Positions 20,278-54,757 of a DNA stretch of 64,000 nucleotides are shown one piece after another (positions within the stretch are counted from its first letter, which is position 1; each line of letters starts with the position of its first letter). Under the pieces are notes generated by a model. It was not told where the DNA came from. It saw only the letters and a list, made by a program, of their open reading frames with translations, and ran no database searches. This stretch comes from Synechococcus sp. WH 7803 (GTDB taxonomy: Bacteria > Cyanobacteriota > Cyanobacteriia > PCC-6307 > Cyanobiaceae), in assembly GCA_000063505.1 (NCBI GenBank), contig CT971583.1:186001-250000 (forward strand), given 5' to 3'. The translations under genes and the position numbers were made by a program.

Positions 20278-21729
<1,452 letters not shown>

Positions 21730-21755: not shown

Positions 21756-23747
21756 CTATGGCTTCGGGTAGGCCTCCATTGTTTGACTTAGGAATTCACC
21801 TGTTTTGCTGTTAACCACCCAGACGTATTGAATTCCTTGTTTGACATTGCGATCGGTGATTAAAACGGTGGACTCGAGGGGGTCTGGCTGACTGATCTGG
21901 GTGATTTTGTAGTCACCCCGGTCCGACGCTATGGCGTTGTTGTCTCGAGTGAGGAGAAGCCAGCGTGATTTGTTGGTTTGGTCGTCTGCCTTTAAATAGA
22001 GATTGCGATGCTTGGAGCCAAGCGAGAACTCGTTGTTGGTGTAGAGAATGTTCGTCACGTCTTTAATTGTGATCGCAACGATGTCTGCAGGATCCCTGAG
22101 TGAGATGTCGCCGTCTGCTGTTCGCGTTGCGACACACCAGCTCTTGGGATTGGTGAGCTCTCGTGTTTCGTGGTGGTCTCGATAACCGGCGCGCTCAATC
22201 CATTGGAATGCGTTGTGCCCAGATGGATTGGTGAAGGGCCATTGCTCTCGTGGAAAGTGTCCGCTGTACCCATTGGCTGTGGGGATGCCTGTGCGTCGTT
22301 GGGCATGCATCGCCAACACTTGTGCGCGCCATGGCGGTTGATCGCTCCATTGGTACCAGAACACAGAGCACTCGCTGTTGTTCAGCGATGAAGAGAGAGC
22401 ATTCAGTTCTTTCTTCCACTGCTGTAGCGAGAAGGATGGTTGACCAATGGCCCAGATCCCCGCAAAGCTTCCGGTCATGGCCAGAATCCCAGCCAATGTT
22501 GCTTTGGTTTGATTGAGTTTGTGATGCCAGTGTTGCGATGCCAGCGCCAGCGCAGGAGATGCAAAAAGAATGATCATCATGGCAACCCTGCTGGATGCCC
22601 TCAGTGAACTTGCCCCGGGCAGGAGCTTGCTGATCAGAGGCCAGGCGCTGAACCCACCCCACGAGAGGCTGAACAGAACCATGGCTGCGATCACCCAAAG
22701 CCATGGCCGCAAACCATTCTTTGCAGTTTGGCTCTTGCGGAACGATGTGATAATTGCTGCTGCCAGCAAAATGAGGACGATCCAGCCAGGAAACAGCTCC
22801 TGCTCAGCTCCGTAAACCATGGCTGGGGGTGGATTGTCAGGACTCCAGGGTGCTTGCAACAACCAGAAATTGCTGCTGTAGAAGTAGCTCAATGGTTTTG
22901 GCAGATTCGTGAGAATTTCCTCGCCAGGCCGTTTTCCGAACGTTTTGAGCGTTTGCAGGTAGGGCCAATAAATGACTAAATTTGTTCCGATAATTGAGGC
23001 AAGAGCGAATGCATTTCGGGTTAAGTTTTTACCGTTTTTGATGATCAAATTTTTGATTTTGAGTCGCCTGCCGAGATGGGTCAAAGCGCATATCAATGTG
23101 CCATAACACGCGTAGACGCAGATGTAGATATTAAAGAAGCCGATCGCAAGCAACCAGGAAGCCAGGCTTAACCATGATGAGATCGCAAAATCCTCTGTTG
23201 GCTCGTGAATCAAGCGGTGGCAGAGACAAAGAATGGGCCCTATGAGGAAGAGGCTGAGAAGTTGTGGATGTCCCAGTTGTTGGATGATGGCGGGACTGAA
23301 AGCTGTTACCAGGGCAATCATGCTTATCCAAGTGGCAGCTGCTGTCGGTGCAATCCGCTGTGCCGCCATCCGGATGGAGAGATAGTTGAGGGTGAGCGTG
23401 AGGCTCAGCCAGGCCACATAGCTTTGGTAAGGGTCGAGTAAAAACCTGAATGCTCCGTAAAGAACACTTGGTCCCAGTAGGTGATCGCTCCAGGCCAGAG
23501 TATTTTTGATTGGCCAGAAAAAGTTAGGTGACCAGTATTGATCCGGGTTGAGAATCGTTGATCCCGTGAAATGTTGGTAAGCGTGCTCTAGGAAATAAAG
23601 GTTTAAAAGCGTATCTCCTGCATCTGTTTGGAGTTGTTCCAGGCCACTCGAGACTGTGGGCCACAATGTCATTGTTACTGCGATGGCAGGGATCAGCAGC
23701 CAGTGCAGCCCAAAGCAAGCTGCTTGCGTGACTTGTTTGTTGTTCAT
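21756..23747 (-). CDS. Large multi-pass membrane protein, GT-C glycosyltransferase-like
   Basis: The 663-residue protein has about ten or more hydrophobic segments in its first 420 residues and a soluble C-terminal part of about 230. The arrangement, with an early acidic pair in LQTDAGDTLLNLYFL (about residues 39-53), resembles lipid-sugar-dependent GT-C transferases. No family signature is certain, so the enzyme call is inference. The coding DNA is clearly more AT-rich than the rest of the window, with rarer codons such as TTA, AAA and ATA, suggesting transfer. It is the last gene of a minus-strand run with GtrA, GT2 and UDP-glucuronate decarboxylase, 4 bases after the decarboxylase stop. 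Confidence 0.72.
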   Translation of the reverse strand: MNNKQVTQAACFGLHWLLIPAIAVTMTLWPTVSSGLEQLQTDAGDTLLNLYFLEHAYQHFTGSTILNPDQYWSPNFFWPIKNTLAWSDHLLGPSVLYGAFRFLLDPYQSYVAWLSLTLTLNYLSIRMAAQRIAPTAAATWISMIALVTAFSPAIIQQLGHPQLLSLFLIGPILCLCHRLIHEPTEDFAISSWLSLASWLLAIGFFNIYICVYACYGTLICALTHLGRRLKIKNLIIKNGKNLTRNAFALASIIGTNLVIYWPYLQTLKTFGKRPGEEILTNLPKPLSYFYSSNFWLLQAPWSPDNPPPAMVYGAEQELFPGWIVLILLAAAIITSFRKSQTAKNGLRPWLWVIAAMVLFSLSWGGFSAWPLISKLLPGASSLRASSRVAMMIILFASPALALASQHWHHKLNQTKATLAGILAMTGSFAGIWAIGQPSFSLQQWKKELNALSSSLNNSECSVFWYQWSDQPPWRAQVLAMHAQRRTGIPTANGYSGHFPREQWPFTNPSGHNAFQWIERAGYRDHHETRELTNPKSWCVATRTADGDISLRDPADIVAITIKDVTNILYTNNEFSLGSKHRNLYLKADDQTNKSRWLLLTRDNNAIASDRGDYKITQISQPDPLESTVLITDRNVKQGIQYVWVVNSKTGEFLSQTMEAYPKP

Positions 23748-23751
23748 TGGT

Positions 23752-24693
23752 TCAGCCTTTGCTCAGGCTTTGCTTGAACCAATCGATCGTGGGTTGCAGT
23801 CCGTCTTGAAGGGCAATCTTCGGCTCCCAGCCAAGTTCCTTCCTGGCGAGATCAATGATCGGCTGGCGTTGGAGTGGATCGTCCTGGGGGAGAGGTTTTG
23901 TGATCAGTTCGAGCTTGGGATTGATGCGATCGCGCACCAGTTCAGCCAGCTGGCGGATGGTGAACTCACCCGGATTGCCGATATTGATGGGGCCTGTGTG
24001 GTTGCCGTTCATCAGGCGGATCATGCCTTCAATCAGATCATCCACATAGCAGAAGGAGCGGGTCTGGCTGCCATCGCCATAGAGAGTGAGGGGTTGTCCT
24101 TGCAGCGCTTGAACGATGAAGTTGCTCACCACCCGTCCGTCGTCGGGCAGCATGCGCGGCCCGTAGGTGTTGAAAATGCGCATCACGCGGATTTCCGTGC
24201 CATGCATGCGTTGGTAGTCGAAGCAGAGGGTTTCGGCGATGCGTTTGCCTTCGTCGTAACAGCTGCGGATGCCGATGGTGTTCACACATCCGCGGTAACT
24301 TTCCGGTTGGGGATGCACTTCTGGATCCCCGTACACCTCGCTGGTGCTGGCCAGAAGTAAACGTGCGCCCACCCGGCGCGCAAGGCCGAGCATGTTGTAA
24401 GTGCCAAGAAAGCTTGTCTTGGCCGTTTTGATCGGATTGAACTGGTAGTGCACCGGCGAGGCCGGACAGGCCAGGTGCCAGATGCGGTCCACCTCCAGGC
24501 GGATCGGCTCGGTCACATCGTGACGGATCAGTTCAAAGCGAGGATGGCCAATCCATTGGGCAATGTTGCTTTTGCGACCCGTGAAGTAATTGTCAAGACA
24601 GATCACCTCTTCCCCGGCGTTCATCAGCCTGTCGGTGAGGTGGGAGCCGAGAAAACCAGCGCCACCAGTGATCAGGTTACGGGTGATGCGCAT
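23752..24693 (-). CDS. UDP-glucuronate decarboxylase (UDP-xylose synthase), SDR family
   Basis: The 313-residue extended short-chain dehydrogenase has the NAD loop [10 protein letters not shown] near the N-terminus. It also has the UXS-type substrate motifs [19 protein letters not shown] and [15 protein letters not shown], and the catalytic Tyr/Lys in CYDEGKR. These sequences are characteristic of enzymes that convert UDP-glucuronate to UDP-xylose. It probably supplies xylose for the glycan made by the neighbouring GT2, GtrA and membrane proteins. Spacing to both neighbours is below 10 bases. Confidence 0.9.
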
Positions 24694-24699
24694 GGTGCT

Positions 24700-25407
24700 T
24701 CAGCGTTGAGCCCAAAGATTGTATTTGAGAATGCAGTAGATCGCTCTCACGCCATCTTTCCAGCCGATTTTCTTGCCTTCGTCGTAGGTGCGGCCGTAAT
24801 AAGAAATCCCCACTTCGTAGATGCGCAGATTCATCTTTGCGATTTTGGCCGTGACTTCTGGCTCAAAACCAAAACGGTTTTCGCGAATGTTGATCGCTTG
24901 AATCACTTCACGGCGAAACGCCTTGTAGCAGGTCTCCATGTCCGACAAATTCAAATCGGTGAAGAAGTTGCTCATCAATGTGAGCACGCCATTGCCCACG
25001 CGGTGCCAGAAGTACACCACGCGATGGGGCCTGCCACTCTGGAAACGGCTGCCGAACACCACATCGGCTTTGCCATCCACAATCGGTTGAATCACGATCG
25101 GGAATTCCTGGGGATCGTATTCCAGATCTGCGTCTTGAACGATGCAGATATCGCCGCTGGCCTCCTGGAAGCCCGTGCGCAGTGCAGCGCCCTTGCCTTG
25201 GTTCATCTTGTGAAAGATCACCCGCACATCGGGATCCTTCAGTGTGCTCAGGATGTCGCGTGTCCCGTCTCTCGAGCCATCATCCACGATGATGATTTCT
25301 TTGTTGGCAACAGGTGACTGTTTGACGGCGTCGATCAACGAGAGGATGGTTGCTGATTCGTTGTAACAAGGGATGATGATGCTCAGTTTCACTACTTGAA
25401 CACCCAA
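24700..25407 (-). CDS. GT2 glycosyltransferase, dolichyl/polyprenyl-phosphate sugar synthase type
   Basis: The 235-residue protein has the GT-A core: [14 protein letters not shown] at the N-terminus, [13 protein letters not shown], and the DXD-type motif QDADLEYDP. It resembles DPM1-like synthases, which load a sugar onto polyprenyl phosphate at the cytoplasmic face. There is no C-terminal membrane pair. ATG 25407 overlaps the GtrA gene by 16 bases; a GTG at 25392 sharing one base with its stop is an equally good start. Paired with the GtrA protein it looks like a sugar-loading and flipping unit. Confidence 0.9.
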
Positions 25408-25889
25408 TACTTCTGTGCGCCGAAGGATATCACGGCGAGGCAGGGGATCAGTGCGGCAGCGGCAAGATTTTTCTGAATGCCGACGCCTGCACCTGCCTCA
25501 ATCCCTGCAGCATTCAGAAGCCACATCACCGTCATCAATAACAAATAGCGAAGCAGCGGTCTGTGATGACGCAGCCCTTTGGCTTTGAAAACAAGTTTTC
25601 CGTAAATGGCATATCCGAGGCCGGTGTTGATCGCCTGGCTGATCAAAGTGGCCATGGTGACGGCCACTAGGTTGCTGGCCAGCAGAATCTGCAGCACAGC
25701 ATTGGTGATCAGCACATTCAGCAGGCCAGCGGCGCCGAAGCGCCGTTTTTGTCCCCGTTTTCTTGCTGATTGCTCACTCTGTTGTGAGCCTGAATCATGA
25801 AAAAACCCCTCCTGCACCGCGGCAGAAGGGGCCAGTTGTTGGTCATGCTCTGTGGAACCAGTCGGCTGAGGCTGACGGTTCGAGGGCAT
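25392..25889 (-). CDS. GtrA-family membrane protein (putative lipid-linked sugar flippase)
   Basis: From ATG 25889 it has 165 residues. A hydrophilic N-terminal 50-60 residues ([16 protein letters not shown]) precedes four membrane helices, including [20 protein letters not shown] and [20 protein letters not shown]. It ends with KYWVFK, typical of GtrA. GtrA proteins are thought to move polyprenyl-phosphate sugars across the membrane. It starts 4 bases after the transketolase stop, so transcription may continue from tkt. Confidence 0.85.
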
Positions 25890-25893
25890 GACG

Positions 25894-27903
25894 TCATCCA
25901 AGCAGGGCTTTGGATTTTGCCACAACGTTCTCAACCGTGAAGCCGAACTCCTTGAGGCAGGTTCCACCGGGGGCGGATGCACCGAAGCGGTTCATGGTGA
26001 CGCTGTCACCATCGAGGCCGATGAAACGGTGCCAGCCGAAGGATTCAGCAGCTTCCACCACCATGCGCTTGCGCACAGCGTTGGGGAGCACTTCTTCCTT
26101 GTAGGCGTCGCTTTGCTCATCGAACAGTTCCACGCAGGGCATGGACACCACGCGCACCTTCTTGCCTTCGGCGCTGAGCTGCTTGGCGGCCTGCACGCAG
26201 AGGTCGAGCTCGGTGCCGGTGCCGATCAGGATCAGATCGGGGGTGCCTTCGCAGTCTTCGAGCACATAGCCGCCCAGAGCCACCTTGTCGATCGAGGAAT
26301 TGGCCTGGTTGGCCATGCCCTGACGGCTGAGGCACAGGGCGCTGGGGCGCTTGCGGTTTTGAATCGCCAGCTTGTAGGCACCACTGGTTTCGTTGGCATC
26401 GCCAGGACGGAACACCAGCATCCCGGGCATGGCGCGCAGGGAGGGAATGGTCTCGATCGGCTGGTGGGTGGGACCGTCTTCGCCGACGCCGATGGAGTCG
26501 TGGGTGAGCACGTAGATCACACCCAGTTCACTTAGGGCCGACAGGCGCATGGAGCCGCGCATGTAGTCGGCGAACACCAGGAAGGTGCCGCCGTAGGGGA
26601 TCAGGCCGCTGTCGTGATAGGCGATGCCGTTGAGGATGGCCGCCATGGCGTGCTCACGCACACCGAAGTGCAGGTAGCGCTTCTCAGGGGTTTCCGGCTG
26701 GTAGGAACCGGTTTCGCCCTTGATGTCGGTGTAGTTGGAGTGGGTGAGGTCGGCGGAGCCACCGATCAGCTCAGGCAGGTTGGGGCCGAGGGCGCCCAGG
26801 CAGATCTGGGAGTGCTTGCGGGTGGCCAGACCCTTCTCGTCGGGGCCAGCGGTGGGCAGATCCTTGTCCCAACCCTCGGGCAGTTCACCGCGCAGCATGC
26901 GCTCGAACTCAGCCGCTTCAGCGGGGAACTGGGTGCGGTAGGTGGCCAGGGTCTGGTTCCACTCGGCTTCGAGGCTGGCGCCACGCTCGATCGCCTGGCG
27001 GAACTGGTCGTAAGCCTCCTGGGGCACTTCGAAGGGGCCGTACTCCCAGCCCAGCTGCTGACGGGTCAGGACGGTTTCGTCTTCACCCAGGGGTGCACCG
27101 TGCACGCCGGCGGTGTCGCCCTTGTTGGGGGAGCCGTAGCCGATGGTGGTGGTCACCTTGATGATCGACGGCTTGTCGGTCACGGCCTTGGCGGCTTCGA
27201 TCGCCTTGGCGATGGCGTCCACATCGGTGTTGCCGTCGGCCACGTGCTGCACATGCCAGCCGTAGGCCTCGTAGCGCTTGAGCACGTCCTCGGTGAAGGA
27301 CACGTCCGTGCGGCCGTCGATGGTGATGTGGTTGTCGTCGTAGAGGGCGATCAGCTTGCCCAGCTTCAGGTGGCCGGCCAGGGAGCAGGCTTCCGAAGCG
27401 ATGCCTTCCTGGTTGCAGCCATCCCCCATCACCACATAGGTGTAGTGATCCACGAGGGTGGCGCCGGGCTTGTTGAACTTGGCGGCCAGGTGGGATTCAG
27501 CGATCGCCAGACCCACGGCGTTGGAGATGCCGGCGCCCAGGGGGCCGGTGGTTACTTCAACACCAGGAGTTTCAAAGGTTTCGGGGTGGCCGGGCGTCTT
27601 GGAGCCCCACTGGCGGAACTGCTTGATGTCGTCGATCGACACTGAGTCGTAGCCGGTGAGGTGCAGCAGCGCGTACAGGAGCATGCAGCCGTGACCCGCC
27701 GAGAGCACAAAGCGGTCGCGGTTGAACCACTTGGGGTTCTTGGGGTTGTGCTTGAGAAACTTGTCCCACAGCGCATAACCCAAGGGTGCGCAGCCCATCG
27801 GCAGGCCGGGATGGCCGCTCTTGGATTTGTTGATGGCATCGACGGCCAGCATCCGGATGCTGTTGATGCAGAGCGTGTCGAGAGAGGCGGGCGCTGCGAC
27901 CAT
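25894..27903 (-). CDS. tkt: Transketolase
   Basis: This is the TPP- and Mg-dependent enzyme of the Calvin cycle and pentose phosphate pathway. From ATG 27903 it has 669 residues. It shows the N-terminal [11 protein letters not shown], the TPP/Mg motif [28 protein letters not shown] and the C-terminal [16 protein letters not shown]. The open frame upstream of 27903 overlaps fabF and is not used. In the Calvin cycle it competes with phosphoketolase (xfp in this window) for xylulose and fructose phosphates. Confidence 0.97.
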
Positions 27904-27953
27904 GGTGAAAAGTGCGTTGCGGACAGTTTGAAGCAGGGGTGCGGTGTCGCCGC

Positions 27954-29201
27954 TCACCCCATCGAGCGGAAAGCCAGGCAGACGTTATGACCGCCGAAGC
28001 CAAAGGAGTTGGAAAGCACCGTCTCCAGTTTGTGGTCTCGAGCTGTGTTGGGAACGACATCCAGATCACAGTCGGGATCGGGATTGGCGTGGTTGATCGT
28101 GGGAGGAACCACGTTGTGCTGCAGTGCCAGCACGCAGGCCACGGCTTCAATCCCGCCGGAGCCACCCAGCAGATGGCCGGTCATCGACTTGGTGGAGCTC
28201 ACCGGGATCTGCAGGGCACGATCACCGAGAGCGCTCTTGATGGCAGCGGTTTCGTTGCTGTCGTTGGCGGGGGTGCTGGTGCCGTGGGCATTCACGTAAT
28301 CCACACTCGCCGCTGACACACCACCGTCGTCCAGGGCGAGGCGCATGGCGGCTGCACCACCCACACCCCCCGGTGTGGGCGAGGTGATGTGATGGGCATC
28401 GCAGGTGGTGCCGTAGCCGACCACCTCGGCAAGGATGGTGGCACCGCGAGCTTCGGCGTGGCTGAGGGTTTCGAGCACCAGCATGCCGGCTCCTTCGCCG
28501 ATCACGAAGCCGTCCCGATCGCGGTCGAAGGGGCGGCTGGCCGTGGCCGGGTCATCGTTGCGGAACGACAGCGCTTTGGCACTGGCGAATCCAGCCACCC
28601 CCAGGGGGGTGATCGCCGATTCCGCCCCGCCGCAGAGCATGGCGTCGGCCTTGCCCAGCTGGAGCAGGCGGAACGCATCACCGATGGCATTGGATCCCGC
28701 GGCACAGGCGGTGGCCACCGCCGAGCTTGGACCCTTGGCACCCACGGCGATCGCCGCCAGACCTGTGGCCATGTTCGGAATCATCATCGGCACGGTGAAG
28801 GGGCTCACGCGGCCGGGCCCTTTGCCGTCGAGCACGTGGGCCTGGGTTTCCATCGTGAGCAAACCGCCCACGCCCGACCCGATGATGATGCCGATGCGCT
28901 CAGCGTTATCTGGAGTGATCTCCAGGCCGGAATCAGCCAGAGCCTGTTGGGCTGCCACCACACCGAATTTGCTGAAGCGATCCCAGCGCTTGGCGTCTTT
29001 GGGCTCAATGAACCCCGTTGGATCGAATGCCTTCACTTCCGCGGCAAAGCGGCAAGCGTGTGCAGACGCGTCGAACAGGGTGATGCCTGCGACGCCGTTG
29101 CGGCCGGACGTGAGCCCGTCCCAGTAGTCGGCAACGCTGTTGCCGATCGGTGTCACCGCGCCAAGGCCGGTGACCACGACGCGTTGGAGACCCTCCACCA
29201 T
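27954..29201 (-). CDS. fabF: 3-oxoacyl-[acyl-carrier-protein] synthase II
   Basis: FabF elongates acyl-ACP with malonyl-ACP. The 415-residue protein has the active-site Cys in [12 protein letters not shown] and the two catalytic His in [11 protein letters not shown] and [11 protein letters not shown]. The N-terminus [14 protein letters not shown] is typical. acpP lies 11 bases upstream on the same strand, the usual acpP-fabF pair, and transketolase follows after 50 bases. Confidence 0.97.
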
Positions 29202-36115: not shown

Positions 36116-36124
36116 AAGCGTGAT

Positions 36125-51011: not shown

Positions 51012-52436
51012 TCAGAACCTCTCGATGATCGCTTCAGCGAAACCGCTGCAGCTCACCGGATCCACTTTGGGTTCCATCAGCCGGGCCAGGTCGTAGGTGA
51101 CCTGCTTGTCGGCGATGGCGGCGCTCAGGCCCTTGGTCACCAGGTCGGCAGCCTCCTGCCAACCCAGGAATTCCAGCATCATCACGCCGCTGAGGATCAC
51201 GGAACCGGGGTTGATGCGATCGAGGCCGGCGTGCTTCGGGGCGGTGCCGTGGGTGGCTTCAAAGATGGCGGCGGTTTCGCCGATGTTGGCGCCGGGGGCC
51301 ATGCCCAAACCGCCCACCATGGCCGCGGCGGCATCGGAGATGTAGTCGCCGTTGAGGTTGAGGGTGGCCAGGATCGAATACTCCTGAGGCCGGGTCTGGA
51401 TCTGCTGGAAAATGCTGTCGGCGATGCGGTCATCCACCAGCACCATCTGCTTCCACTTGCCGCCCCCATGGCTGCTGCCGATGGCGTCGATCACGGCCTG
51501 CACTTCGGCATCGATGTCGGCCTTCTTCTCGGGGGTGAGGCTGTCGTAGCCCGGCTCGATCATGCGGGCATTGGCCTGCACGCTCAGGCCTGGATCCTTC
51601 TCGAGGTTGCCGAGAATCCAGCTCTCCCGCTCGGTGATGCACACGTCGCGGAATTCGGTGGTGGCCAGCTCGTAGCCCCAATCGCGGAACGCTCCTTCCG
51701 TGAATTTCATGATGTTGCCCTTGTGCACCAGGGTGACGTGGCGCTTGTCGCCTTCCAGGCGCAGGGCGTGCTGAATCGCTTTGCGGATGTGGCGCTGGCT
51801 GCCGTGCTTGCTCACCGGCTTGATGCCGATGCCGGAGCCTTCGGGGATCTGGCGTTTGCCCAGCTTGCCGTTGGCGGGGATCACCACCTCGTTGAGGTGC
51901 TTGCGCAGCTCCTGACCAACGGCGTCATCGGCCTCCCACTCCACACCCATGTAGATGTCTTCGGTGTTCTCCCGGTACACAATCACGTCCAGATCCTGGG
52001 GACGCTTGTGGGGGCTGGGGGTGCCCTCGTAATACCGGCAAGGACGTACGCAGGAATACAGATCGAAGATCTGGCGCAGGGCCACGTTCAGCGAGCGGAT
52101 GCCGCCACCCACGGGGGTGGTGAGGGGGCCCTTGATGGCCACGCCGTAGGTGCGGATCGCTTCGAGGGTGTCTTCGGGCAGATACTGATAGGTGCCGTAG
52201 AGGTCGCAGGCCTCATCGCCGGCATACACCTTGAACCATTCAATCGTTTTGGCTCCGCCGTAGGCCTTGGCCACGGCCGCATCCAGCACTTTCTGGGTGG
52301 CAGGCCAGATGTCAACGCCGGTGCCATCACCGCGGATGAAGGGAATGATCGGGTTGTCGGCCACCACGGGTTGGCCGTTCTCGAAGCGGATCGGTGTGCC
52401 CTGGCTGGGGGCGGTGAGCTTCTCGAACTGGGCCAT
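51012..52436 (-). CDS. icd: NADP-dependent isocitrate dehydrogenase
   Basis: Icd converts isocitrate to 2-oxoglutarate, the carbon skeleton for nitrogen assimilation in cyanobacteria. From ATG 52436 it has 474 residues, the cyanobacterial length. Motifs are FIRGDGTGVDIWPAT, the phosphate-binding PVGGGIRSLNVALRQ, VYRENTEDIYMG, LVHKGNIMKFTEG and the C-terminal EATHGTAPKHAG. It diverges from the GT2 gene, 91 bases apart. Confidence 0.98.
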   Translation of the reverse strand: MAQFEKLTAPSQGTPIRFENGQPVVADNPIIPFIRGDGTGVDIWPATQKVLDAAVAKAYGGAKTIEWFKVYAGDEACDLYGTYQYLPEDTLEAIRTYGVAIKGPLTTPVGGGIRSLNVALRQIFDLYSCVRPCRYYEGTPSPHKRPQDLDVIVYRENTEDIYMGVEWEADDAVGQELRKHLNEVVIPANGKLGKRQIPEGSGIGIKPVSKHGSQRHIRKAIQHALRLEGDKRHVTLVHKGNIMKFTEGAFRDWGYELATTEFRDVCITERESWILGNLEKDPGLSVQANARMIEPGYDSLTPEKKADIDAEVQAVIDAIGSSHGGGKWKQMVLVDDRIADSIFQQIQTRPQEYSILATLNLNGDYISDAAAAMVGGLGMAPGANIGETAAIFEATHGTAPKHAGLDRINPGSVILSGVMMLEFLGWQEAADLVTKGLSAAIADKQVTYDLARLMEPKVDPVSCSGFAEAIIERF

Positions 52437-52527
52437 GCTTGATTCGCCGCCTCGCGGCATCACTTGGTGGCGAGCCTATGACTCGAGGTGCAATCCCTAC
52501 AGTTCAAGGGTCCCTGCCGCCCGTCTG

Positions 52528-53484
52528 ATGACGACCCGTAATGGTGTGTGGGTGGTGGCAGCCTGTTTCAACGAAGAGGCTGTGATCGTCCGCTTCATCG
52601 AGCGGGTGCTGGCTGTTCCCGGTGTGGACCATCTGGTGCTGATCGACGATGGCTCCAGGGATGCCACTCGCGATCAGATCCGCACGTTCTTGGCGCAGCG
52701 CCGCAGCCTGGGCGTGCCGGTTCCGGTCACCCTGCTCGAACTCACCCGCAATTTCGGCAAGGAAGCCGCCATGCTCGCGGGCTTGGACCATGTGCGCGAG
52801 CGCTGTGAGGCGGCGGTGCTGATCGACTCCGACCTTCAGCACCCGCCCGAGTTGATCGAGGCCATGGTGTCGGAATGGCGCGCTGGGGCCGAGGTGGTGA
52901 CGGCGGTGCGCGATGACCGCGATCAGGAGTCGCGTTTGAAGGTGCTGAGCGCTTCCTGGTTTTACCGGGTGTTCAACAAGGTGGTGGATTCCATCCAGCT
53001 GCAGGAAGGGGCTGGTGATTACCGCTTGCTGGATGTTGCGGTCGTGGACGCGTTCACCCGCTTGCGCGAGTCAAGCCGCTTCTCCAAAGGCCTGCTGCCC
53101 TGGACGGGCTATCGCAGTGTGGAGTTGCCTTATCAGCGCGTCAGCAGGGTGGGAGGCACGACCTCCTGGAGCCCGCTCAAGCTGATTGGCTATGCCTTCG
53201 ATGGGATTTTTTCCTTTTCCGTGCTGCCTCTCAAGGTGTGGACAGGCCTCGGGGTTCTGGTCTCCGGGATCAGCCTGTTGTATGCGTTGTTAATCGCTCT
53301 GCGTACGGCTCTTGTGGGCCGCGATGTCCCCGGTTACGCCTCCTTGATGGTTGCCGTGCTGTTTCTAGGCGGCATTCAGTTGATCGGTATCGGCGTGCTC
53401 GGCGACTACATCGGCCGCATTTATGTGGAGTCGAAGGCCCGGCCGCACTACTTCATCCGCTCGATTGATCAGGGAGGGGCGTAA
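52528..53484 (+). CDS. GT2 polyprenyl-phosphate glycosyltransferase, GtrB/ArnC-like
   Basis: The 318-residue protein has a GT-A domain (VVAACFNEEAVIVRFIERVL, LIDDGSRDATRDQI, metal motif LIDSDLQHPPEL) and two C-terminal membrane helices (VWTGLGVLVSGISLLYALLI and LMVAVLFLGGIQLIGIGVLG). It ends in GDYIGRIYVESKARPHY. This architecture transfers a sugar to undecaprenyl phosphate at the cytoplasmic face (GtrB, ArnC, FlmF). Its 3' end overlaps the convergent GtrA-deacetylase fusion by 32 bases. The sugar donor is unknown. Confidence 0.93.
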   Translation: MTTRNGVWVVAACFNEEAVIVRFIERVLAVPGVDHLVLIDDGSRDATRDQIRTFLAQRRSLGVPVPVTLLELTRNFGKEAAMLAGLDHVRERCEAAVLIDSDLQHPPELIEAMVSEWRAGAEVVTAVRDDRDQESRLKVLSASWFYRVFNKVVDSIQLQEGAGDYRLLDVAVVDAFTRLRESSRFSKGLLPWTGYRSVELPYQRVSRVGGTTSWSPLKLIGYAFDGIFSFSVLPLKVWTGLGVLVSGISLLYALLIALRTALVGRDVPGYASLMVAVLFLGGIQLIGIGVLGDYIGRIYVESKARPHYFIRSIDQGGA

Positions 53485-54757
53485 GCGTTGCGAGGGCGCG
53501 CCACTCTCTTTGCCGCCAAGGGGAAGCGGCGAAAGCTTGGGAGACCGTAAATCCAGCATCAGCAAGGTTTTGATCCAGGGGAGCACCGGGATGGGCCAGC
53601 AACAGTGGTGCTGTGTGCTGGGCCTTGGCGCCCAGGCTGCTGAGTTCCCTCCAGGCAGCCAGAAGCGGTGCACCCGCCATGTGCCCGGTGAACAGCACGC
53701 CAGCGAACCCCGCGTTGGTGCTCAGTCCGCAGCGCTGAAGGTGGGCTCGCGCACGCCAGCTGAGCAGCTGCAAAATCAACCACTTGAGCAGCCCTGCATC
53801 GCGGCAGGCTTGCCACCAGCAGCGCAAGGGAAGCCCGGTGGGCAAGGGTTCATCGGTGCTGCGCACCCAGGTGATGCCTGCTGAATGAGCACGGTCCAGA
53901 ACAGCCTCGAGCACCACAGGCACAAGGTGGATGTGTTGGTGGCCATCCAGCGCGATGGACCCGTGCCCGCCCAAGGCTTGAAACTGTTTGATTTGCGCGT
54001 CGATTTCGCGTCTCAGTTGGGCAACAACCCTCACGCGCTCTGGATGGCGGCGCGGCAGCAGTGAGAGGAGCAGCCAGGATCCAAAAGACCGGTGCAGATG
54101 GCCTTGGCGATTCACCAGATCGGGAATCAATTCGGGGACAGCACTCGATGGTCCTTCGGTGAGGCAGAGATGGAGACAGAGCTGCAGGGTTGGCCTGTGT
54201 TCCGTCAGGGAACGCCAGGCTTCGGCGCCCTCTGCAGCGGCCGGACCGTTCACCAGAAGACTGGTCCCATCCAGCTGTCCGGCCTTCGCCAGAGCCAAAA
54301 TTGCCGTGTTCGCGGCCTGGCTGAGGCCGAGATCATCGGCATGGCGGAGCGGAATCACGCGTTCCCCCTGGCGGCGCTGCAAGCTGAAGCGGGCAGCTTT
54401 CGACCAGATCAGCGCATTCAGCGCCGTTGGCGTGAACACCAGCACAGCCACTTCAGCGCCAGAGGGGAGCCATCCAGGCAGAGCCAGGGGAAGCACACCG
54501 CTGACGGTGAGGTTGACGACGTACTGAAGGATCAACCAACGGCGGGCGAAACGCTGGCCGCCGGTTTCGGGTTGGAACGTAAAGCGGGAGTGGCCGAGAT
54601 AGCTCGCCAGGGATGCGGCAAGGAAGGCCAGAGGGTTGGCCAGCCATAACGGCATCAGGCCTCCGAGAACCAGCAGTGCCAGCGCATGCACGGCCGCGGC
54701 ACCGACCCCAACCAGTCCGTACAGGCTGAGTCGGGTGCTGAGAGACCTCGGGATCAT
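53453..54757 (-). CDS. GtrA flippase-like domain fused to ChbG/HpnK (YdjC) deacetylase
   Basis: The 434-residue protein joins two families. Residues about 8-125 are a four-helix GtrA domain (LYGLVGVGAAAVHALALLVL, YLGHSRFTF, LILQYVVNLTVSGVLPLALP, ALIWSKAARFSL). Residues about 132-425 are a YdjC/ChbG deacetylase: metal-site D141/D142 in LRHADDLGLS, H196 in LQLCLHLCLTEGP, and H273/H275 in LDGHQHIHLVP. GtrA proteins are thought to flip polyprenyl-phosphate sugars; this deacetylase family removes acetyl from amino sugars. The sequence is continuous with no frameshift. It is convergent with a GtrB-like transferase. Confidence 0.9.
   Translation of the reverse strand: MIPRSLSTRLSLYGLVGVGAAAVHALALLVLGGLMPLWLANPLAFLAASLASYLGHSRFTFQPETGGQRFARRWLILQYVVNLTVSGVLPLALPGWLPSGAEVAVLVFTPTALNALIWSKAARFSLQRRQGERVIPLRHADDLGLSQAANTAILALAKAGQLDGTSLLVNGPAAAEGAEAWRSLTEHRPTLQLCLHLCLTEGPSSAVPELIPDLVNRQGHLHRSFGSWLLLSLLPRRHPERVRVVAQLRREIDAQIKQFQALGGHGSIALDGHQHIHLVPVVLEAVLDRAHSAGITWVRSTDEPLPTGLPLRCWWQACRDAGLLKWLILQLLSWRARAHLQRCGLSTNAGFAGVLFTGHMAGAPLLAAWRELSSLGAKAQHTAPLLLAHPGAPLDQNLADAGFTVSQAFAASPWRQREWRALATLTPLPDQSSG

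Follow-up and report, generated by a model that had tools for sequence, protein, structure and literature searches.

A GtrA flippase and a GtrB-type family 2 glycosyltransferase (GT2) are combined with a variable terminal transferase in the gtrABC operons of Salmonella and Shigella, as described in the available text of PMC3688519; the GtrC families are strongly different there, GtrA and GtrB are similar, and several operons share loci. For the Gram-positive multi-component systems (CsbB/GtcA/YfhO and GtlA/GtcA/GtlB) a GT-A loader, a GtrA flippase and a GT-C transferase are given in the available part of PMC8035078, the GT-Cs being of low sequence similarity between systems. Genes of these kinds were found in a stretch of 64,000 nucleotides from Synechococcus sp. 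WH 7803 (the window; contig CT971583.1, positions 186,001 to 250,000 of the forward strand; the genome is one contig of 2,366,980 bases), where four minus-strand genes lie between thiC and tkt. The GtrA, the GT2 and a 663-residue membrane protein encoded there quite probably form a Gtr-type three-component transmembrane glycosylation system, a reading based on homology and on a structural model, placed at a thiC–tkt exchange site of which the fourth gene, for UDP-xylose synthase (UXS), is probably an old resident.

Shared with gtrABC are the GtrA flippase, the GtrB-type GT2, the variable terminal transferase and the alternative operons at one locus. In contrast to gtrABC, no prophage, tRNA or integrase was seen at this site, the flanks are the core genes thiC and tkt, UXS lies inside, the GT2 is short, and other donor pathways also occupy the thiC–tkt interval. 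The loader, flippase and GT-C transferase are shared with the Gram-positive systems, from which the present one differs in being cyanobacterial, in occurring in a minority of lineages and in standing mostly at one exchange site. The site may be said to resemble a chromosomal counterpart, with no phage visible, of the gtr serotype-conversion loci.

Proteins of the cassette

The GtrA-family flippase (165 aa; 25392–25889, minus strand, ATG at 25889) matched PF04138 with 39.2 bits (cut-off 26.1). The GT2 (230 aa; 24700–25392, minus strand), a putative GtrB/DPMS-like polyprenyl-phosphate sugar transferase, matched PF00535 with 134.9 bits; its nearest solved structure was dolichol-P-mannose synthase (5mlz, E 7e-22), followed by ArnC, and it matched a GtrB-like PHROG profile (E 7.4e-31). 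Both a GT2 loader, assigned by family only, and a GtrA flippase are thus present, and the flipping and lipid-loading types proposed in a preliminary description of this DNA are backed by PF04138, the 5mlz match and the PHROG profile. The UXS gene (23752–24693, minus strand) encodes, to judge from its matches to PDB UXS1 (4gll, E 1.8e-129; 2b69, E 1.9e-129; residues 5–310; next other protein, E 3e-38), a UXS1-type UDP-glucuronate decarboxylase, i.e., a UDP-xylose synthase.

663-Residue protein (21756–23747, minus strand): no Pfam or NCBIfam family was found at E 0.1, curated GT-C family models included, and no PDB sequence relative at E 1; eight hydrophobic segments were obtained by simple count. 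An AlphaFold2 model built from a 14-sequence alignment (pLDDT 77.8, pTM 0.77) has a predicted GT-C fold with a beta-rich C-terminal part. Foldseek gave seven matches at E ≤ 0.001, every one an oligosaccharyltransferase (PglB: E 6.5e-6, TM ~0.4). The best VIA-align match was yeast STT3 (8agb_A; Z 17.3, 428 residues, 4.9 Å); Pmt, AftD, DPY19, AftA, ArnT, PglB and EMB enzymes followed, and rows 1–46 among the 50 listed are what we take to be GT-C or GT-C-like entries. D42, D45, D88 and R101 are conserved; D42 and D45, which follow helix 1 in the first loop, are at least 90% conserved in the 14 sequences (L065 is truncated there), agree with the acidic first-loop residues of GT-C enzymes and may be catalytic. 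The model supports assignment of the protein as a GT-C glycosyltransferase outside the curated families; the GT-C fold suggested in the preliminary description, to which no sequence model matched, is supported by structure comparison, with oligosaccharyltransferases and other GT-C enzymes as the matches.

In the proposed system, the GT2 would draw on a nucleotide donor to charge polyprenyl phosphate with a sugar on the cytoplasmic side; GtrA would flip the lipid-linked sugar across the membrane, and the GT-C would transfer it, outside the cytoplasmic membrane, to lipopolysaccharide, exopolysaccharide or a surface protein.

The trio was also met in other genomes. Ten non-cyanobacterial loci were found with the GT-C profile; in three of them (L065, L068, L069) a GT2 of 51–54% identity stands directly before a GT-C of 19–26% identity, and no GtrA was seen beside these three pairs. 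GtrA–GT2–GT-C with no UXS in between occurs in Prochlorococcus AG-409-B05 (L062), at a place apart from thiC and tkt, and also at the thiC–tkt site of G122, the G122 protein being a full-length GT-C relative by profile (99.9%). The order GtrA–GT2–UXS–GT-C of the window recurs at the thiC–tkt site of a more distant strain, Synechococcus sp. GFB01 (L063), and beside tkt in G078, where thiC lies elsewhere. As the association of GT2 with GT-C is wide, a shared lipid-linked donor is supported. Two contigs of GFB01 (L063, L064) carry the UXS–GT-C–thiC end of the cassette with broken reading frames, perhaps from two populations or from sequencing errors.

A gtr operon carried in by a phage and left by a prophage would follow the same gene logic as gtrABC, the GT2 is GtrB-like, and relatives of it, all below 60% identity, occur in 183 phage records (the eight listed: 28–31%, save one of 49.8% in a record named Microcystis phage MaAM05). 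Against such an origin, the GT-C had no relative in 50,697 phage records or in a pattern scan of IMG/VR contigs, the only tRNA of the window is at 36124, not at the site, and a Pfam scan of 42 genus-site proteins (98 open reading frames (ORFs) called) showed no integrase or transposase family; with neither phage nor integration context found, this origin is highly improbable. The neighbour of the MaAM05 GT2 was considered as a relative of the 663-residue protein and rejected by profile (probability 0.6%), though it matches Glyco_transf_22. The 274 kb record concerned (L164, MW495066.1), named Microcystis phage MaAM05, has purL, speB, speE and guaD around its GT2/GT-C pair and may be cellular DNA.

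The thiC–tkt interval in genus and family

Sample: 31 genomes of the genus group, thiC being found in 29, on which the interval counts are based; 161 genomes of the family, with thiC in 145 and tkt in 146 at the thresholds used. The borders of the variable interval are conserved: thiC (20326–21729, plus strand; NF009895, 711.5 bits) on the left and tkt (25894–27957, minus strand; TIGR00232, 966.8 bits) on the right. They are neighbours in all 29 genus genomes with thiC. In 118 of the 139 family genomes with both (116 of 136 without the partial tkt matches of seven genomes and a second thiC fragment of G156) they share a contig and converge, at a distance of 15 bp to 30 kb. The close neighbourhood in relatives, as stated in the preliminary description, is upheld. 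In the other 21 they lie on different contigs or are arranged otherwise, far apart in the single-contig genomes G073, G114 and G138.

Between these borders, related species carry differing gene sets or none: of the 29 genus intervals, 7 are empty (186–300 bp), 7 hold UXS alone and 15 measure 3.2–14.5 kb. The four genes are together at the site in 4/29, not in most relatives; neither this count nor the predicted GT-C fold refutes the preliminary description. GT-C was found in 4/31 genus genomes and 7/161 family genomes, and GT2 (E ≤ 1e-60) in 6/31, always at thiC–tkt and always beside GtrA; GtrA, GT2 and GT-C are patchy and accessory, as the preliminary description had it.

The 42 scanned proteins (the window's four included, some being repeats of one family) comprise GT2s, GtrA, nucleotide-sugar-type epimerases, sulfotransferases, a pyruvyl transferase, a DegT aminotransferase and a methyltransferase, together with more general enzymes (TPP enzyme, HMGL-like, FrhB). 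Several large membrane proteins at genus sites match no Pfam family. When the GT-C profile A2 was run against 19 single site proteins, not all of them large membrane proteins, the window protein itself was the sole match. The G016 membrane protein has a relative in G092, encoded away from the site, that matches PMT, and the G179 occupant matches PMT_2; the other scanned large membrane proteins of genus intervals gave no match to a GT-C model. From their helices and acidic first loops, judged by eye, we infer that these proteins are GT-C enzymes as well. A donor module was accompanied by a membrane protein of at least 400 aa with many hydrophobic segments in 12/12 genus genomes, against 2/17 without a module (Fisher p 1.8e-6, with classes set after the data were seen, related genomes counted as independent, GT2s without GtrA in G001 and G024 included and the divergent GT2 of G007 omitted).

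Donor modules of other types also occur. A fused GT2–GtrA is found in G030; in three other genera, six genomes have relatives of it (~60% identity) next to tkt, with a PMT_2-type neighbour in G179. The site operon of G010, G015 and G016 encodes a UbiA-type phosphoribosyltransferase, DprE1, a DprE2-like SDR, GtrA and a HAD phosphatase fusion (scores in G016: DprE1, 538.6 vs 500; UbiA type NF008978, 234 vs 207; DprE2, 106.5 vs 250, below the cut-off); DprE1, SDR and UbiA homologues also lie at thiC–tkt in G088, of another genus. These genes are found in L054 (2491–12418), L053 and L057 for the three genus genomes and in L128 for the other genus. DprE1 is present in 3/31 genus genomes, all at the site by coordinates, and in 11/161 family genomes, with only G088 of these 11 having it inside the thiC–tkt interval; arabinose-type genes of other genera are therefore mostly elsewhere. 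Like types constitute the decaprenyl-phospho-arabinose pathway (DprE1, DprE2, UbiA/Rv3806c), from which the present set differs in being cyanobacterial and in providing a donor alternative to GT2 plus GtrA, outside the cassette of this genome.

Probable exchange, base composition and the place of UXS

Tree of thiC+tkt: 27 genus genomes and 2 outgroups; of the genus, G007 and G029 (tkt incomplete in the stretch) and the two genomes with no thiC match are not included. A single clade of the four GT-C carriers was rejected in the approximately unbiased (AU) test (p 4e-108), and the minimum numbers of changes on this tree were 4 for GT-C, 6 for GT2 and 2 for UXS at the site. G025 is sister to G006 in the thiC+tkt tree (97/90) and groups by UXS with the present genome (G000) and G004 (88/81); a UXS clade of G025 with G006, G009 and G029 was rejected (p 0.002). 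DNA identity of G025 to G006 is 95.1% for tkt and 74.2% for UXS; to the present genome it is 92.0% for UXS, 89.2% for GT2, 88.3% for GtrA and 52.9% for GT-C. From this tree conflict and pattern of identities the intervals seem to have been exchanged, and the UXS allele of G025 appears to have moved together with the cassette. The comparisons give good support to thiC–tkt as an exchange locus. Cassettes would be gained, lost and swapped there, probably through homologous recombination in the conserved flanks; such exchange would diversify surface glycans between lineages, and the terminal GT-C may be the most-swapped part. Instead of having been replaced, the GT-C may have evolved fast, and exchange may have gone in either direction.

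Alternatively, the four-gene set could be ancestral to the family and lost in most lineages, insertion then not being needed. Distant genomes share the gene order, as noted for GFB01 (at the site), G078 (beside tkt) and G122 (at the site, UXS lacking), which agrees with an old set; the GT-C is nevertheless carried by only 7 of the 161 family genomes, the thiC+tkt and UXS trees conflict for G025, two cassettes that are 8–12% apart in the DNA of their other three genes are 47% apart in that of GT-C, and many unrelated gene sets occupy the site. Ancestry with loss was accordingly considered quite unlikely, and exchange at thiC–tkt was retained.

Several points weigh against the system and its exchange as proposed. 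No membrane helices are obvious by eye in the GT2, whereas classical GtrB has them; the fold match depends on a model of the above pLDDT and on a Foldseek TM of ~0.4; and the trio is not contiguous in this genome, because UXS sits between GT2 and GT-C. G004 and G027 differ from the present genome similarly in GT-C (71.7% and 59.9% identity) and in GtrA (72.1% and 67.2%), so that G025 is the main basis for a faster change of the GT-C. For thiC, G025 has much the same identity to G000 (93.0%) as to G006 (92.9%), a G000+G025 clade in the thiC+tkt tree being only weakly rejected (p 0.03), and the groups compared in the AU tests were named after the trees had been seen. Finally, the GC content at third codon positions (GC3) of the GT2 is ordinary (66.1, 87th lowest of the 280 ORFs below), and composition gives no sign of recent import of the whole set.

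Composition: the GC content of the interval is 53.2% in this genome against 62.1% for thiC, and it is below that of thiC in 29/29 genus genomes, a lower value being expected anyway for the short non-coding intervals; outside the genus some intervals are not AT-richer. A background of 280 mechanically picked ORFs (taken from the window and from 20 stretches elsewhere in this genome; some may be false) gave a mean GC3 of 69.3 (standard deviation (SD) 7.8). The gene of the 663-residue protein, described earlier as visibly AT-rich, has a GC3 of 58.4 (20th lowest of 280), below all 24 strongly hydrophobic background ORFs; it is AT-rich, yet by only ~1.4 SD. GtrA follows with 60.9 (32nd lowest), and UXS with 70.7 (158th) is ordinary. 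Recent import as proven by composition alone was rejected, low GC3 being confined to GT-C and GtrA.

UXS is probably an old resident of the site and not specific to the cassette. It was found (E ≤ 1e-90) in 28/31 genus genomes, in a single copy in this genome; at thiC–tkt it stands in 17/29. In other genera, 20 of the 22 intervals of 0.5–1.5 kb were covered (G072 and G139 were left out), and UXS was the sole matched gene in 16 of the 20. These counts and the ordinary GC3 do not support the earlier view of UXS as part of a dedicated inserted module, and the chief argument for xylose falls away with it. The inserted xylose-glycan module of the preliminary description is supported in part: for the GT-C fold, the flippase, the lipid-loading GT2 and the patchiness, and not for the membership of UXS. 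In G012 (L039, 2434–3353) an apparent UXS remnant lies in pieces at thiC–tkt and an intact copy lies elsewhere.

A self-contained module, in which UXS makes UDP-xylose, the GT2 polyprenyl-phospho-xylose and the GT-C transfers xylose, would account for UXS lying inside the operon as the only copy in the genome at that threshold, for the apparent co-transfer of the UXS allele with the cassette and its GT2 in G025, and for the same order in GFB01 and G078. It is unlikely in view of the excess of UXS over GT2 in the genus (28/31 vs 6/31), which shows that UXS is neither restricted to the cassette nor always with it, of UXS alone at the site in 7/29 genus and 16/20 other-genus intervals, and of GT2 plus GtrA at the site without UXS in G005, G026 and G122; moreover, the closest GT2 relative in phage records (49.8%) is automatically named RgtE, a dodecaprenyl-phosphate galacturonate synthase. 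UXS being common outside the cassette, its adjacency to the trio is weak evidence for xylose, and xylose as the transferred sugar is unproven since UXS is not specific to the insert. An Rgt- or Gtr-like system that furnishes lipopolysaccharide with galacturonic acid, glucose or some other common sugar is a real possibility, albeit on the doubtful side: the RgtE label favours it, as do galacturonic acid, glucose and glucosamine in the lipopolysaccharide of marine Synechococcus WH8102 and CC9311 (available text of PMC4515613), while the label is an automatic annotation at 50% identity and the compositions come from those other strains.

Gene layout: the four genes run head to tail behind tkt, facing thiC, with 4 bases between the 663-residue gene and UXS, 6 between UXS and GT2 and 4 between GtrA and tkt, and with a 1-base overlap of GT2 and GtrA (the TAG of GtrA and the GTG of GT2 read TAGTG); the open frames confirm the tight packing between thiC and tkt first described. 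For GT2, the GTG at 25392 is favoured by homology, and TTG at 25407 is also open. The GtrA ORF, picked mechanically, extends to GTG at 25982; relatives start alike (MPVN in G025 and G004, MSVN in G027). An intrinsic-terminator-like hairpin with U-run (25804–25833, minus strand) lies downstream of tkt within the 5' coding part of gtrA, which begins 4 bases past the tkt stop and spans such a hairpin here and in G025; a similar hairpin follows tkt, by the same criterion, in 19/27 other genus intervals. Within gtrA, the hairpin could act as an attenuator or represent a tkt terminator that was captured. Over 4.5 kb of scanned sequence, intrinsic-terminator-like sites numbered 6 (4.8 expected) and promoter candidates 1 (2.2 expected); border repeats were only short degenerate pairs. 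A second GtrA-domain protein of the window (53453–54757, minus strand; region 52267–54757), the C-terminal part of which presumably resembles a YdjC-type deacetylase, lies beside a GT2-like protein with C-terminal hydrophobic segments.

The site among glycan loci of picocyanobacteria

Among the known categories in marine Synechococcus islands, that of glycosyltransferases and glycoside hydrolases is reported to predominate (Dufresne 2008, available text of PMC2441476); the islands are laterally acquired, with glycosyltransferases prominent, and were suggested to help in avoiding phages and grazers (available texts of PMC2441476 and PMC7522525). The thiC–tkt site likewise holds probably laterally acquired genes rich in glycosyltransferases and differs from these islands in its small size and its fixed borders, thiC and tkt. 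Neither thiC nor transketolase is mentioned in the main text of Dore 2020 (PMC7522525), and thiC is absent from that of Dufresne (PMC2441476); apparent mentions of thiC in PMC6343036 and PMC9361551 proved to be the word "thickness". Titles and abstracts among the matches listed contained no description of thiC–tkt as an exchange site, nor of DprE1 in picocyanobacteria. As far as the searches reach, the specific site, its family-wide use and the mix of donor modules are new within the literature searched. The findings also point to mycobacterial-type arabinose-donor genes (DprE1, UbiA) in cyanobacteria.

The glycan genes of picocyanobacterial islands have long been suspected to act in resistance to phages and grazers, and the islands are large and mixed. 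Tentatively, and with doubt slightly outweighing belief, the whole picocyanobacterial family could have in thiC–tkt a locus dedicated to glycotype switching, where alternative donor modules (GT2 plus GtrA, fused GT2–GtrA, polyprenyl-phospho-arabinose) and interchangeable GT-Cs would be swapped between species in a phage-free manner and would set the surface met by cyanophages and grazers; the site may play a part in defence against them. As the locus is small, with fixed borders, readable empty sites and few cassettes, any genome or metagenome can be typed by its cassette, and the type could be set against phage susceptibility.

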